From Actinomycetota bacterium (GTDB lineage: Bacteria > Actinomycetota > Actinomycetes > S36-B12 > UBA5976): 64,000 bases of DNA. This document shows positions 54,088 through 62,413 of the stretch, one piece after another (position 1 is the first letter of the stretch; each line of letters begins with the position of its first letter). Position numbers and translations under genes: made by a program. Where the stretch lies: contig JAPLBY010000029.1 of assembly GCA_026392515.1 (NCBI GenBank), positions 77,493-141,492 of the forward strand, read 5' to 3'. Below the pieces are notes generated by a model. It was not told the origin of the DNA, made no database searches, and was given only the letters and a program-made list of their open reading frames with translations.

Positions 54088-55470
54088 TTACTGTCCTAAG
54101 AGTTTGGAAACTACGCCCGCAAGTTTTGAGGGTTTGCCAGTTTTGTCTTCAGCGTGATCTGCTCGAGACATAATCTGCAATCCAGCATTTGCACCAATCC
54201 ACCGAAGCGGCTCAACTTCCCAATTAGGGGACTTGTGATTTACCCAAGGAAGTTTGGTAATTGGAGTTTCTTGGTTCGTGATTAAGTCTGCAAGAGTTCG
54301 GCCAGAAAGGTTTGTGGTGCCGACACCGTCACCTACATAGCCACCAGCCCAAGCAATTCCAGTTTTGCGATCAAGACCAGCTGATGCCATCCAATCGCGA
54401 GCTACACCAAGTGGCCCACCCCAAGTGTGAGTTACTTTGGCGTCAGCTACTACTGGGAACAGCTCAGCTAATACGCCAAGTAGCGCAGGATGAACTTCGC
54501 TGTGCTGGTCGTATTCATCTTTGATTGAGGAGCCGAAGTGATATGGCGCACCGCGGCCGCCAAATGCAAAACGATTGTCTGCAGTGCGTTGACCATAAAT
54601 GATTAGATTTCTAAAGTCACGAAAAGTTTCGCGTTGAGCTAAACCAATCTGATCCCAAACCTGCGCACTTAATGGTTCAGTTGCCATCATCAAGGAATAG
54701 ATCGGAACTATCTTTCGCTTCTGGCCTTCGAGTGACTTTGTGTAACCCTCAGTTGCTCGCACCACGTATCGAGCGCTGATTACGCCACCAGTCGTAAATA
54801 CTTTGCCTGACTCAATCTTGGTTGCTGCAGTATGTTCATAAATTGTGGCGCCGCGCTTTTCAACCAGATTTGCCAGTAAGCGAACTAACTTAGCTGGATT
54901 GAGCGCAGCGACGTGTGGTGTGTAAGTGGCACCGAAGAGATTGGTTGCTTGGGCGCGCTCTTTAGCTTCGCCTGCACTTAACAATGCATAGTGCTCAGCG
55001 CCGTAGCCCCATTCCTCCCAATGGTGAATGTAATCTTGCGCGCGCTGCCACTGCAGCGGAGTGCGAGCAAACGAAATAGTTCCACCGCGCTGCCATTCGC
55101 AGTCGATGCCTTCGGCCTTTACTACATTTTCAACTTCAGTCACAGTGTCATGCATGGCATCTTGCATGGCGCGAGCAGATTCACGGCCATGAATGCGACC
55201 AAGTTTGTCGATCTCGGTAGGGAAGTAAGCCGAACACCAACCACCATTACGGCCAGAAGCACCATAGCCGGCAACTTCAGCATCAATGATTGCAATGTTC
55301 AGATTTGGGTCGCGCTGTTGCAAGTAATAAGCCGTCCAAAGTCCGGTGTAACCAGCGCCAACAATGGCCACGTCAACATCAATGTCTGAGTGCAGCGCGT
55401 AGCGAGAGGAAGTTGCCAACTCTTCGGGCAACGTGTTCCACCATAAGGACTTTGATCGGTAATCAGTCAT
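54088..55470 (-). CDS. FAD-dependent oxidoreductase (DAO family; gamma-glutamylputrescine oxidase-like)
   Basis: VDVAIVGAGYTGLWTAYYLQQRDPNLNIAIIDAEVAGYGASGRNGGW; WAGGYVGDGVGTTNLSGRTLADLI. Confidence 0.88.
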   Translation of the reverse strand: MTDYRSKSLWWNTLPEELATSSRYALHSDIDVDVAIVGAGYTGLWTAYYLQQRDPNLNIAIIDAEVAGYGASGRNGGWCSAYFPTEIDKLGRIHGRESARAMQDAMHDTVTEVENVVKAEGIDCEWQRGGTISFARTPLQWQRAQDYIHHWEEWGYGAEHYALLSAGEAKERAQATNLFGATYTPHVAALNPAKLVRLLANLVEKRGATIYEHTAATKIESGKVFTTGGVISARYVVRATEGYTKSLEGQKRKIVPIYSLMMATEPLSAQVWDQIGLAQRETFRDFRNLIIYGQRTADNRFAFGGRGAPYHFGSSIKDEYDQHSEVHPALLGVLAELFPVVADAKVTHTWGGPLGVARDWMASAGLDRKTGIAWAGGYVGDGVGTTNLSGRTLADLITNQETPITKLPWVNHKSPNWEVEPLRWIGANAGLQIMSRADHAEDKTGKPSKLAGVVSKLLGQ

Positions 55471-55482
55471 TTTGCTTCCTTG

Positions 55483-56148
55483 CTAACGCTTCCATTTTTT
55501 GATGTAGTTCGGAGTTGGAATGTTCTTTTCAGTTGTCATTGGATCAGCCACAGGTTCGCCAAAAACTTCCTTCATCGGAACGTAACCTGCCCAAATGTTT
55601 GAGTAAATCGGATCCGTTAAATCACTTGGCACATCATCTGGATCGCCTTCGCTCACCTTGCAGGAAACCTCATCGAGATTCAGTGCGAGCATAAGTGTTG
55701 CCTTGGATTCCTTTGGCGCAGCTTTTCGAGCTTCGTCAGTGCGACCTGGAAGCAAGTGATCCGTGATTCGAATCAGTGCAGCTTCTTTGTCTTCGCCTTC
55801 AAGAACTTCACAAGATCCCAGTGCAATGACGCATCGGTAATGCATGCTGGATTCAAAGGCGCTACGTGCTAACACCATGCCATCGAGCAAAGTGACCGTG
55901 AAGCAGCAAGCTTGACCTGCTGCCAAATTCTTAAAGAGCCTCGATGCGGTTGATCCATGAAATAGCACTCGGTCGCCATCGCGGGCATAGCCAACTGGCA
56001 TTACGAATGGTTGACCATCTACGACGCAAGAAACGTGAGCTACGAGACCCGCATCGAGAATTGCATAAACTTCAGCACGATCTTTAACTGCTTTTTCAGG
56101 AAAGCGACGGACCGAAGTTCGGTCCGTCGCTCCTACTGGATTAGTCAT
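55483..56148 (-). CDS. Pyridoxamine 5'-phosphate oxidase family (FMN-binding split-barrel) protein
   Basis: DRAEVYAILDAGLVAHVSCVVDGQPFVMPVGYARDGDRVLFHGSTASRLFKNL; EVSCKVSEGDPDD. Confidence 0.85.
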   Translation of the reverse strand: MTNPVGATDRTSVRRFPEKAVKDRAEVYAILDAGLVAHVSCVVDGQPFVMPVGYARDGDRVLFHGSTASRLFKNLAAGQACCFTVTLLDGMVLARSAFESSMHYRCVIALGSCEVLEGEDKEAALIRITDHLLPGRTDEARKAAPKESKATLMLALNLDEVSCKVSEGDPDDVPSDLTDPIYSNIWAGYVPMKEVFGEPVADPMTTEKNIPTPNYIKKWKR

Positions 56149-57536
56149 TAGAGAATCTTTTGTCCTTCAGTGAGAACGTGACGCAAGATTTGCTCCATCT
56201 CATCGAACTGCTCTTGACCACAAATCAGTGGTGGAGCCAGCTGGATTACCGGGTCGCCACGATCATCAGCGCGGCAATACAGTCCATTTTCGAACAATGC
56301 CTTAGATAGGTAGCCGCGAAGCAAACGCTCGCACTCATCATCATTGAAGGATTCCTTAGTGGCCTTGTCCTTAACAAGTTCAATGCCATAGAAGAAGCCT
56401 TCGCCACGAACGTCACCAACAATGTCAAGGTCCTTAAGTTTTTCAAGAGTCTGACGGAATTGGTTTTCGTTGTCGCGAACATGTTGATTGATGCCTTCTT
56501 TGTCGAAGATATCAAGGTTTGCCAAAGCAACAGCTGCGGAAACTGGGTGACCACCAAAGGTGTAACCATGTGCGAAGTAAGTGTTGCCCTTCTTGAATGG
56601 TTCGAATACTTTGTCGCCAACTAGCATTGCGCCGATTGGGGAGTATCCCGATGTCATACCCTTTGCAGTTGTGATGATGTCAGGATCAACACCGAAACGC
56701 TTCATTGCAAACATGTCGCCAATACGACCGAATGCACAGATCGTTTCATCTGCAACCATCAATACGTCGTACTGATCGCAGATTTCGCGCACGCGCTCTA
56801 GGTATCCCGGTGGTGGTGGGAAACATCCGCCTGAGTTTTGAACTGGCTCAAGGAATACCGCAGCTACTGTGTCAGCGCCTTCGAAAAGAATTGCTTCTTC
56901 GATGCGATCTGCAGCCCAACGACCGAATGCTTTGATGTCATCGGCGTGATACTCAGCGCGGTAGAAGTTCGTGTTCGGTACGCGGAAACCACCTGGGGTT
57001 AACGGTTCGAAATACTTCTTGGCATCTGGAATACCAGTGATTGCCAAAGCACCCTGTGGTGTGCCGTGATATGCAACTGCGCGACTGATGACTTTATGCT
57101 TCATTGGCTTGCCAGTTAGCTTGTAGTACATCTTTGCTGCTTTCCAAGCTGACTCAACGGCTTCGCCACCACCAGTAGTGAAGAAGACGCGGTTCAACGA
57201 AGATGGCGCGTAACTGATTAGGCGCTCAGCAAGTTCAACTGCCTTTGGATGGGCATAGGACCAAAGTGGGAAGAAGGAAAGTTCCTGCATCTGCTTGGCT
57301 GCAGCTTCAGCAAGTTCGCGACGGCCATGGCCAATCTGAACTGTGAACAAACCAGCTAGACCATCAAGGTACTTACGGCCTTGTTCGTCATAGATGTATG
57401 CACCTTCACCACGAGTGATGATTGGAACTTCGCCACCATTTTCATATGTGGAGTGACGAGTGAAGTGCATCCATAGCCGATCGCGCGCCATGTCTGATAA
57501 TGCGGAGTTAGTTGTTCTATCTTCTAGTGCTGTCAT
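56148..57536 (-). CDS. Class III PLP-dependent aminotransferase (aspartate aminotransferase family; omega-amino acid/polyamine type)
   Basis: YLDGLAGLFTVQIGHGRRELAEAA; FTTGGGEAVESAWKAAKMYY; VADETICAFGRIGDMFA; TTAKGMTSGYSPIGAML. Confidence 0.9.
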   Translation of the reverse strand: MTALEDRTTNSALSDMARDRLWMHFTRHSTYENGGEVPIITRGEGAYIYDEQGRKYLDGLAGLFTVQIGHGRRELAEAAAKQMQELSFFPLWSYAHPKAVELAERLISYAPSSLNRVFFTTGGGEAVESAWKAAKMYYKLTGKPMKHKVISRAVAYHGTPQGALAITGIPDAKKYFEPLTPGGFRVPNTNFYRAEYHADDIKAFGRWAADRIEEAILFEGADTVAAVFLEPVQNSGGCFPPPPGYLERVREICDQYDVLMVADETICAFGRIGDMFAMKRFGVDPDIITTAKGMTSGYSPIGAMLVGDKVFEPFKKGNTYFAHGYTFGGHPVSAAVALANLDIFDKEGINQHVRDNENQFRQTLEKLKDLDIVGDVRGEGFFYGIELVKDKATKESFNDDECERLLRGYLSKALFENGLYCRADDRGDPVIQLAPPLICGQEQFDEMEQILRHVLTEGQKIL

Positions 57537-57555
57537 TACGTATCCAATGTTTTAG

Positions 57556-58014
57556 TTAGCGGGTTCCCCATGTATAGCTCTGCTTGCGCAGTTTCAAATA
57601 CATGAATGTTTCCGTGCGGCGGACCCCAGGAATCGCACGAATTTTACGATTGATCACTTCAAGAAGTGCCTCGTCGTCTTCACAAACAACTTCGAGGATT
57701 ATGTCGAAACTGCCTGCTGTCAGGATGATGTAGCTGATCTCATCCATAAGTGAAAGCACATCTGCGACGGCTTCCATGTCTCCATCAACTTCTATGCCGA
57801 TCATCGCTTCGCGATTAAAACCAACTTGAAGTGGATCCGTAACGGCAACGATTTGCATAACTCCGGTTTCCAGGAGTTTGCTCACCCGTTGGCGAACTGC
57901 AGCTTCCGACAATCCAACGGCCTTACCGATAGTTGCGTAAGGGCGTCGACCGTCTTGCTGAAGTTGCTCAATGATGGCTTTGGAGACATCGTCGAGCACA
58001 GCAACTTTAGACAT
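57556..58014 (-). CDS. Lrp/AsnC family transcriptional regulator
   Basis: MSKVAVLDDVSKAIIEQLQQDGRRPYATIGKAVGLSEAAVRQRVSKLLETGVMQIVAVTDPLQVG; AsnC C-terminal domain. Confidence 0.92.
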   Translation of the reverse strand: MSKVAVLDDVSKAIIEQLQQDGRRPYATIGKAVGLSEAAVRQRVSKLLETGVMQIVAVTDPLQVGFNREAMIGIEVDGDMEAVADVLSLMDEISYIILTAGSFDIILEVVCEDDEALLEVINRKIRAIPGVRRTETFMYLKLRKQSYTWGTR

Positions 58015-58052
58015 GTGTCTAGTTTCAAGGGTTTTCACAGAAAAAACAAGTG

Positions 58053-59611: not shown

Positions 59612-59670
59612 GCCCAAAATTTATTACCTTGATGCCTGCATCTATTCAATTCTCTGCTTACAATGAAAGA

Positions 59671-59860
59671 GCAAGGGGATCACCTGTAGAGGTGGCCGAT
59701 TGGCACTAGGAACATAAGGCCTAGAGCGCATATAGAAGGGGACTGGTGGGATCCGGATTCGCAAAAATGCGAATACCGACAGAAAACAATGCTGGCGATT
59801 TTTGCCAGACACATCTGATCACCAGTGAGCCCCCTCTCACCCAATCGTTTGGACTTTTGC
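59671..59860 (+). ncRNA. Candidate structured 5' leader/riboswitch-like RNA upstream of FAD oxidoreductase
   Basis: Hairpins CACCT-GTAG-AGGTG (59681-59694) and GCaCTAGG...CCTAGaGC (59703-59727); three-way junction closed by AGAaGGGGACTGGTG/CACCAGTgagCCCCcTCT (59734-59748/59820-59837) enclosing CGGATTCGCA-AAAA-TGCGAATaCCG (59754-59778) and CTGGCGA-TTT-TTGCCAG (59792-59808); CCAA-TCGT-TTGG (59841-59852) overlaps the RBS; -10-like TACAAT at 59659-59664. Confidence 0.55.
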
Positions 59861-59861
59861 A

Positions 59862-61283
59862 ATGGTTTTTTCACACACACCTTCACCACATGTTTTGCCA
59901 TCCCTGGCTGATGTCTGGGAAGGCTCTTATTGGCTCGATGATGAAGTTGAGCCAGAACATGATTCATCTCGAGTCGTTGGCAATTTAACTGCTGACCTAT
60001 TAATTGTTGGCGGCGGATTCACAGGACTGTGGGCTGCGATCGAAGCCAAAGAACACAATCCAAACTTGGATGTGGTTTTAGTTGAAGGTAACGCAGTAGC
60101 ACGTGGAGCATCTGGCCAAAACGGTGGCTTCGTTGCCGCGTCCCTGACACACGGTTTTTCCAATGGGCTAGATCGTTGGCCAGATGACATTGCCAAGCTG
60201 ACAAAACTTGGCCAACAAAACTTAAATGAAATGGAACAGTTTGTAATCGATCGCAAAATCGATTGTGACTGGATGCGCGTTGGCGAAATGGATGTTGCCA
60301 CCGAGGAATACCAAGTGACTGAACTTCAAGAGTTTGTTGAAGTAGCAAAACCTTATGGCGAGGAATTGGTTTGGTTAGATCAAGCCGAAACTCGACGTCG
60401 TCTAAATTCACCTACCTACCTTGGCGCATTGTTTGATCCAGATAGTGTCGCAATTTGTGACCCAGCTCGCTTGGCTTGGGGACTTCGCGATGTGGCACTT
60501 TCACTCGGAGTTCGAATCTATGAACACAGCAAAGTAGTTGACTTAGATGAGCGCGGCGATCGGGTTACTGCAAAAACTGAATTCGGTAGCGTTACGGCTC
60601 CAAAGGTTTTGCTTGCAACTAATGCCTTCCCGCCGCTACTTCGTCGCCTTAAGTATTTGATCGTTCCGGTTTATGACTCAGTTCTAGTTACCGAACCATT
60701 AAGCGAGCAACAACGTCGCGACATAGGTTGGGCAGGCAATGAAGGCGTCAGCGATACCGGCAATCAGTTCCATTACTACCGCCCAACTGCAGATGGTCGA
60801 ATTCTTTGGGGTGGATACGACGCGACCTATCATTTCCGCAGTGGCTTTGGGGTTCAGCATGAGCACTCAACTAAGTCTTGGCCAAAATTAGCCGATCACT
60901 TCTTCTCAACGTTCCCGCAGCTTGAAGGTTTGCGTTTTGAGTATGCCTGGAGCGGAGCAATCGACACTTGCACCCGCTTTAGTGCGTTCTGGGGAACTGC
61001 AATGGATGACAAAGTTGTTTATGTCGCTGGCTACACCGGACTTGGTGTTGGAGCCTCACGGTTCGGCGCCCAAGTATCAATCGACAAGTTGCTAGATCGC
61101 GATACAGATCGCCGCAATCTTGAAATGGTTAACACTTTGCCAATTCCATTCCCACCTGAACCATTTAAGTCAGCTGGAATTAACTTCACCCGCTGGTCAC
61201 TTGATAAAGCAGATCGCAATCAAGGTAAACGAAACATTTGGTTACGCACGCTCGATCGATTTGGTATGGGATTCGACAGTTAA
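59862..61283 (+). CDS. FAD-dependent oxidoreductase (DAO family), second paralog
   Basis: ADLLIVGGGFTGLWAAIEAKEHNPNLDVVLVEGNAVARGASGQNGGFVAASLTHG; VAGYTGLGVGASRFGA. Confidence 0.88.
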   Translation: MVFSHTPSPHVLPSLADVWEGSYWLDDEVEPEHDSSRVVGNLTADLLIVGGGFTGLWAAIEAKEHNPNLDVVLVEGNAVARGASGQNGGFVAASLTHGFSNGLDRWPDDIAKLTKLGQQNLNEMEQFVIDRKIDCDWMRVGEMDVATEEYQVTELQEFVEVAKPYGEELVWLDQAETRRRLNSPTYLGALFDPDSVAICDPARLAWGLRDVALSLGVRIYEHSKVVDLDERGDRVTAKTEFGSVTAPKVLLATNAFPPLLRRLKYLIVPVYDSVLVTEPLSEQQRRDIGWAGNEGVSDTGNQFHYYRPTADGRILWGGYDATYHFRSGFGVQHEHSTKSWPKLADHFFSTFPQLEGLRFEYAWSGAIDTCTRFSAFWGTAMDDKVVYVAGYTGLGVGASRFGAQVSIDKLLDRDTDRRNLEMVNTLPIPFPPEPFKSAGINFTRWSLDKADRNQGKRNIWLRTLDRFGMGFDS

Positions 61284-61312
61284 TCTCTGGCTCAAGTTGT
61301 AAAGTCAAAGAC

Positions 61313-62413
61313 ATGGCGACTGGATTTGTTTGGGAAGAGCTTTATGGCTGGCACAGCACCGGCTCTAACACTGGACAAATTCCTTCAAGTTCCATAGTCC
61401 AGCCATATCAACACTTTGAAAGTCCGGAAACTAAAGTTCGATTCGCCTCATTAGTTGAAGTCTCAGGACTGGCCAAAGACTTGGTCCGCATTCCTGCAAT
61501 TCCGGCCACAGAAGAAGACCTGCTGCGGGTTCATACCCAAGAGCATCTGGATCGAATCAAGCGAGAAAGTCTAAATCCAAAAGGTGGTGACGCCGGAGAT
61601 GGCGATTCGCCATTTGGATCGGGTGGATTCGAAATTGCAGCTCTTGCCGCAGGTGGAGCAATAGCTGCGCTGCGGGCTGTGGTTTCTGGCGAAGTTAACA
61701 ATGCCTATGCGTTAGTGCGCCCACCTGGACATCATGCAATTGCGTCAATGGGAATGGGTTACTGCATGTTTGCAAACGCAGCAATTGCAATTGAGAATGT
61801 CCGCGCAACTATGGGCGTACAACGAGTTGCGATTGTGGATTGGGATGTGCACCACGGAAATGGAACGCAGGACATCTATTTCTCAGACCCAGATGTCTTG
61901 TGCATTTCGATCCATCAGGACAATTTGTATCCAGCAAACAGCGGATTAGTTGATGAGATCGGTGACGGATTGGCTGCCGGTTCAGTAATCAATATTCCGT
62001 TACCTGCTGGCTCTGGAATCGGTGCCTACAGCTCGGCATTTGACAGAGTAGTTTTGCCAGCGATTCGTCGATTTAATCCTGATGTAATCGTGATCACTTC
62101 TGGTTTTGATTCGAGTGCATTCGATCCACTTGCCCAGATGCTGCTAACTGCTGCAGGCTATAGCGAGCTAACCAAGAAGATACTTCAACTTGCAGATGAA
62201 GTTTGCTCCGGTCGAGTCATGATGACACATGAAGGTGGATACTCGCCGGTTTATGTACCTTATTGTGGGCTTGCAGTTCTTGAGGAGATGTCTGGTATCA
62301 AAACTGGCATGAATGATCCGTACGGACACGCCTTTGAGAATTTGCCAGATCAGAAACTTTCGGCTGCTCAAGCGGATCGCATATCTCAAGTAGTAGCGAC
62401 CCACGCTTTGTGA
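61313..62413 (+). CDS. Histone deacetylase/acetylpolyamine amidohydrolase family protein (class II HDAC-like)
   Basis: RPPGHHAIASMGMGYCMFANAAIA; VDWDVHHGNGTQDIYFSDPDVLCISIHQDNLYP; TSGFDSSAFDPLAQM; start at MATGFVWEELYGWH. Confidence 0.9.
   Translation: MATGFVWEELYGWHSTGSNTGQIPSSSIVQPYQHFESPETKVRFASLVEVSGLAKDLVRIPAIPATEEDLLRVHTQEHLDRIKRESLNPKGGDAGDGDSPFGSGGFEIAALAAGGAIAALRAVVSGEVNNAYALVRPPGHHAIASMGMGYCMFANAAIAIENVRATMGVQRVAIVDWDVHHGNGTQDIYFSDPDVLCISIHQDNLYPANSGLVDEIGDGLAAGSVINIPLPAGSGIGAYSSAFDRVVLPAIRRFNPDVIVITSGFDSSAFDPLAQMLLTAAGYSELTKKILQLADEVCSGRVMMTHEGGYSPVYVPYCGLAVLEEMSGIKTGMNDPYGHAFENLPDQKLSAAQADRISQVVATHAL

Follow-up and report, generated by a model that had tools for sequence, protein, structure and literature searches.

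The window analysed here, a stretch of 64,000 nucleotides, is part of the 1.69-Mb draft genome of a freshwater actinobacterium. It carries a gene for a DAO-family FAD oxidoreductase (hereafter DAO) which, as is usual in this genus, adjoins the genes for an aldehyde dehydrogenase and an HDAC-like amidohydrolase, and which is preceded by a leader (59671-59860) that a preliminary description had regarded as a structured RNA (Table 1). The leader does fold: its energy of -68.9 kcal/mol compares with -51.8 (s.d. 3.9) for shuffled sequences, corresponding to a z-score of -4.39, and none of the 200 shuffles was as good. The solved relatives of DAO are only distant and of the glycine/sarcosine oxidase kind. 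The HDAC-like gene may begin inside the end of DAO (61265-61283), and this overlap of about 19 nt suggests translational coupling, yet L032 is without an HDAC gene at that place. Nearby (54088-58038), a second DAO-family gene lies together with genes for a class-III aminotransferase, a PNPOx-like protein and an Lrp/AsnC regulator, a cluster that probably serves related amine metabolism.

Table 1. The DAO leader and the genes behind it; positions refer to the window.
Feature	Position	Strand	Basis or remark
Putative -10 element TACAAT	59659-59664	+	Predicted transcription start near 59671
P1/P2 stem-loop	59671-59702	+	Conserved 2x2 internal loop CAA-GG-GG / CC-GA-UUG; genus-specific 5' domain
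P3 hairpin	59703-59728	+	6 of 8 pairs with compensatory change
Order-wide core, here AAGGGGACTGGTGGGA	59736-59751	+	Order consensus GAAGGGAYUGGUGGGA; invariant stretch in alignments
Junction	59739-59842	+	Closed by GGG:CCC and P4 (59742-59748:59820-59826); consensus folding, two independent subgroups
P5 hairpin	59754-59778	+	Position is that of the hairpin after the core in compact forms; consensus folding
P6 hairpin	59780-59817	+	Outer 59780-59783:59814-59817, inner 59792-59796:59804-59808; sequence differs between the two subgroups, place is the same
P7 small hairpin GAG...CTC	59827-59838	+	Consensus folding; paired in 97% of cells
Likely Shine-Dalgarno GGA	59851-59853	+	Inferred from position ahead of ATG 59862
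DAO-family FAD oxidoreductase, presumed regulated gene	59862-61283	+	Pfam DAO PF01266, E 1.7e-60
HDAC-like amidohydrolase	61265-62413	+	Pfam Hist_deacetyl; solved HDAC-like amidohydrolases as relatives; not constant among relatives

Both hairpins proposed in the preliminary description for the 5' part of the leader are present, at 59680-59695 and 59703-59728, as is the proposed three-way junction. The stem that closes the junction is real but shorter than claimed, its conserved part being limited to 7 bp (59742-59748 with 59820-59826); its neighbours in the consensus are a GGG:CCC pairing (59739-59741 with 59840-59842) and a small hairpin (59827-59838). Transcription is predicted to begin upstream of the structure, near 59671, and not downstream of it. 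The TACAAT put forward as a -10 element has a counterpart in the same-genus leaders, a TTAnnAT-like element some 10 nt upstream of GCAAGGGG, although a simple sigma-70 scan recovered no full promoter.

Homologous leaders, which the preliminary description had proposed to compare for covariation and for retention of the structure in close relatives, display both. A DNA search of 44 genomes of the family recovered the leader from 20 of the 23 members of the genus and, by BLAST, from no other genus among the 44. A DAO match lies just downstream in all 20 carriers, and the three leaderless members of the genus have no DAO match or merely a C-terminal fragment. Leader identity falls from 100% to about 70% within the genus, and despite this divergence the blocks GCAAGGGG, CCGATTGG, GGGACTGGTGGGA, CACCAGTGAG and CTCACCC are fixed or nearly so. 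In an alignment of 13 sequences, 11 pairs of the proposed structure show compensatory change, against 4.9 in shuffles, with none of 500 shuffles reaching the observed number and slid controls remaining far lower. This covariation is found in P1/P2, where 4 of the 11 pairs are compensatory and pairing reaches 96.5%, and in P3; P6 has one compensatory pair (alignment A2), and P4, P5 and P7 have none in the 13 sequences. Because P4, the closing stem of the preliminary description, is invariant, covariation cannot judge it; in L019 and L020 its 3' strand reads AACCCGT in place of CACCAGT, at the cost of part of the pairing. Two divergent subgroups, folded independently, yielded one and the same layout, in which P5 and P6 each differ in sequence between the subgroups but keep their place. 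A covariance model built from the 13 sequences recovered L019 and L020 near 1e-9 and, at about 1e-18 to 1e-22, the subgroup that had been left out of it. The P1/P2 pattern is limited to the genus of the window, the one exception being a shorter stray match in G060. L012 has an insertion of several tens of nucleotides downstream of P7 and ahead of the DAO start, in which GCTCACC/GCTCGCC-like units recur close to the Shine-Dalgarno sequence.

Across the order, a compact motif of about 40 nt recurs about once per genome, consisting of a nearly invariant 16-mer, GAAGGGAYUGGUGGGA, and a covarying hairpin behind it. The 15-base form AAGGGAYTGGTGGGA is present in 51 of the 148 genomes of the order, in each exactly once and with either strand considered; the reversed control matches 2. 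In a sample of the class, the core pattern was found in 13 genomes of the order and in 1 of 356 outside it, and the locus of that sole outside match has no DAO match. A spread beyond the order was rejected on the same count, the matches of covariance model R2 there being weak, mostly confined to the hairpin and in no case accompanied by a DAO match in the locus. Outside the genus of the window, 35 of the 37 order-search loci inspected have a DAO match starting 46-187 nt after the motif start, with 40-58% identity to the window gene; the remaining two comprise a contig that stops just past the motif and what looks like a chance match. The core variants GAGGGGAYTGGTGGGA and GGAGGGATTGGTGGGA likewise precede DAO (in G104, G111, G016 and G134). 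Since there is one motif per genome, second DAO paralogues are without it. In 19 motif-less genomes of the order, a PotC-type permease gene extends to within a few tens of nucleotides of the DAO start, leaving no room for a leader. Upstream of the Micromonospora DAO orthologues L038, L042, L055 and L089, permease coding sequence runs to the DAO start, with no R1 match.

The hairpin behind the core often has 8 bp and a five-base loop of the GNUCG type. In 19 aligned compact sequences it is 96% paired and 6 of its 8 pairs show compensatory change, and none of 500 shuffles matches either the pairing or the covariation score. In most compact cases, 27-37 nt separate the hairpin from the start codon. 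A universal P4-like closure of the core was rejected, helices that enclose it being present only in g31 and in the genus of the window, and an upstream-ORF reading of the core was set aside when inspection by eye revealed no consistent frame. Directly ahead of DAO in L060 and L069 stands GGGUGAUUCC followed by a hairpin, a loosely core-like arrangement.

Translational control is the most likely mode of action, because the + strand of the leader yielded no terminator, the hairpin-to-start spacing is near-constant and the structure lies close to the Shine-Dalgarno sequence. The CCAA-TCGT-TTGG hairpin that the preliminary description placed over this sequence is present in the window but is kept only in the 11 closest leaders (L001-L011), being absent from L012-L020. 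Pairing of the core with the Shine-Dalgarno or start region was considered as a conserved platform and discarded: single cases look good (UCCC or CCCAC before AUG), but they do not stand out from shuffles, and core-to-Shine-Dalgarno complementarity in the compact forms is not above that of shuffles (mean z -0.15).

The preliminary description had not recognised the conserved cores of the TPP, glycine, ykkC/guanidine-I, FMN, Moco or SAM classes in the leader, and Rfam 15 (4227 models) gave no match in the window at gathering score; only evident chance matches were obtained for the leader at E<=10 and for 14 compact loci at permissive E-values. A full-text search of open PMC papers returned no published description of the motif, and the four spelled-out core sequences turned up in only 3 of these papers, none of which, judged by title and abstract, concerns bacterial RNA. 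The DAO leader resembles orphan riboswitch candidates in combining conserved nucleotides, covarying stems and a constant gene context with no assigned ligand; it is absent from Rfam 15. The spermidine riboswitch, a SAM-I variant with a four-stem aptamer, controls transcription termination of biosynthesis genes; the class is reported to be rare, and earlier polyamine riboswitch claims have been judged unconvincing (PMC10853860). Both RNAs are leaders tied to polyamine metabolism genes, but the DAO leader has no SAM-family match even at E<=10, differs in architecture and stands ahead of a presumed catabolic oxidase.

The gene neighbourhood informs on the pathway involved. The HDAC-like gene, taken for the pathway partner of DAO in the preliminary description, proved to be a variable neighbour that does not adjoin DAO in L032, and ligand guesses should therefore not rest on it. 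The partners found order-wide are instead PotABCD-type transporter genes and agmatinase: in several genera, a PotABCD-like operon precedes the motif and DAO follows it, and agmatinase is often encoded downstream of DAO (TIGR01230 above cutoff in L037), along with a carboxynorspermidine synthase-like protein. The transporter and agmatinase genes point to polyamine uptake and catabolism, and DAO, judged by its neighbours, is probably an enzyme that breaks down polyamines.

As part of the DAO transcript, the leader forms a conserved, structured and covarying cis-element that belongs to no Rfam family, and its consistent position before DAO supports the cis-regulatory role put forward in the preliminary description, which we consider very probable. 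Two features of riboswitches are present, namely, a structured 5' untranslated element with covariation and a consistent tie to one metabolic gene or pathway. For a small-molecule riboswitch the case stands at about even and, granted a riboswitch, a ligand of the polyamine type is itself an evenly balanced proposition. Our best explanation as a whole, a translational riboswitch that governs DAO in response to a polyamine-type compound, is one to which we give belief and doubt in equal measure. Under this scenario, the order-wide core and its hairpin would constitute the recognition part and a small molecule of the polyamine/agmatine pathway would bind the core, with the additional helices of the window genus (P1-P4, P6 and P7) helping the binding; binding would alter the access of ribosomes to the nearby Shine-Dalgarno sequence, such that the oxidase would be made when its substrate is present. 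As a more tentative and, as it stands, unlikely extension, the leader might represent a new riboswitch class for a particular compound of the polyamine pathway (putrescine, agmatine, spermidine or an oxidation product) that controls polyamine catabolism, with a core of about 40 nt that in one genus has become a 170-nt multi-junction leader.

The main rival, which strikes us as somewhat unlikely, is a leader bound by an RNA-binding protein, be it a regulator devoted to this leader or, by autoregulation, the oxidase itself; the invariant strand and the hairpin would form its binding site, and the bound protein would either obstruct or permit the loading of ribosomes. A short invariant strand beside a hairpin of variable stem sequence is the typical layout of such sites, the element is present in a single copy per genome ahead of one gene, and a search for a switching helix found none; an invariant 16-mer next to a variable stem has the look of a small aptamer and of a protein site alike. 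In the window genus, however, the element comprises several conserved helices and an internal loop free of variation, a degree of elaboration that exceeds what a protein site usually needs and slightly favours a riboswitch, and no candidate protein was identified. The nearly constant spacing to the start codon would equally suit a constitutive 5' structure that serves mRNA stability or ribosome standby without regulation, but a near-invariant 16-base strand conserved across the order is more than stability needs, making this reading improbable.

Features that might be expected of a DNA operator are the symmetry of the compact hairpin, which forms an inverted repeat of 8 bp around a five-base centre, and a direct repeat, GGGA, within the 16-mer; on this reading, a transcription factor would recognise a palindrome whose place in the untranslated region is incidental. 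Yet the cells of the compact stem hold 24 G-U against 1 A-C combination, where a DNA palindrome predicts equal numbers, and so indicate RNA; considering, in addition, the conserved multi-helix RNA layout of the genus form and the orientation and position fixed inside the predicted transcript, we hold an operator to be quite improbable. T-box leaders and the DAO-leader core have in common a UGG-type sequence within a conserved strand rich in purines, and the UGGU of the core could pair with the ACCA end of a tRNA. A T-box-like leader that senses tRNA or a small RNA nevertheless seems very improbable, given that there is no T-box match in Rfam, that the compact forms leave no room for a specifier stem, that none of the tRNAs at the 30 loci inspected in the window genome ends in UCCCACCA, as pairing with the extended core would have it, and that the order genomes carrying the motif contain no second copy of the 15-base sequence on either strand.

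The DAO leader with its order-wide core is accordingly described here as a previously uncatalogued cis-regulatory RNA candidate, for which riboswitch function is plausible. As a riboswitch, it would be a separate candidate of the polyamine kind, spread through an actinobacterial order and tied to polyamine uptake and breakdown, and the question could be tested directly on an RNA of about 40 nt. It would also provide an example of one regulatory core growing from a compact to an elaborate form within an order.

Further leader types were observed upstream of DAO. The f7 genomes (L149, L155, L157, L160, L161, L164 and L171-L173) have a different conserved structured leader at this place, characterised by TCCGGAGGACCCGGGG and a covarying upstream stem and with no Rfam match in the subset of loci scanned; L069 shares TCCGGAGGACCCGGG with leaders of this type. 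A third type, AGGGGUGAGAGCCGGACGC...GGUCCGUAAUCACC, which folds as a nested stem, is found upstream of DAO in the g2 genomes (L166-L170), and in L166, L167 and L169 the stretch examined also contains an RNase P RNA, the only Rfam match in the scanned f7 and g2 stretches.
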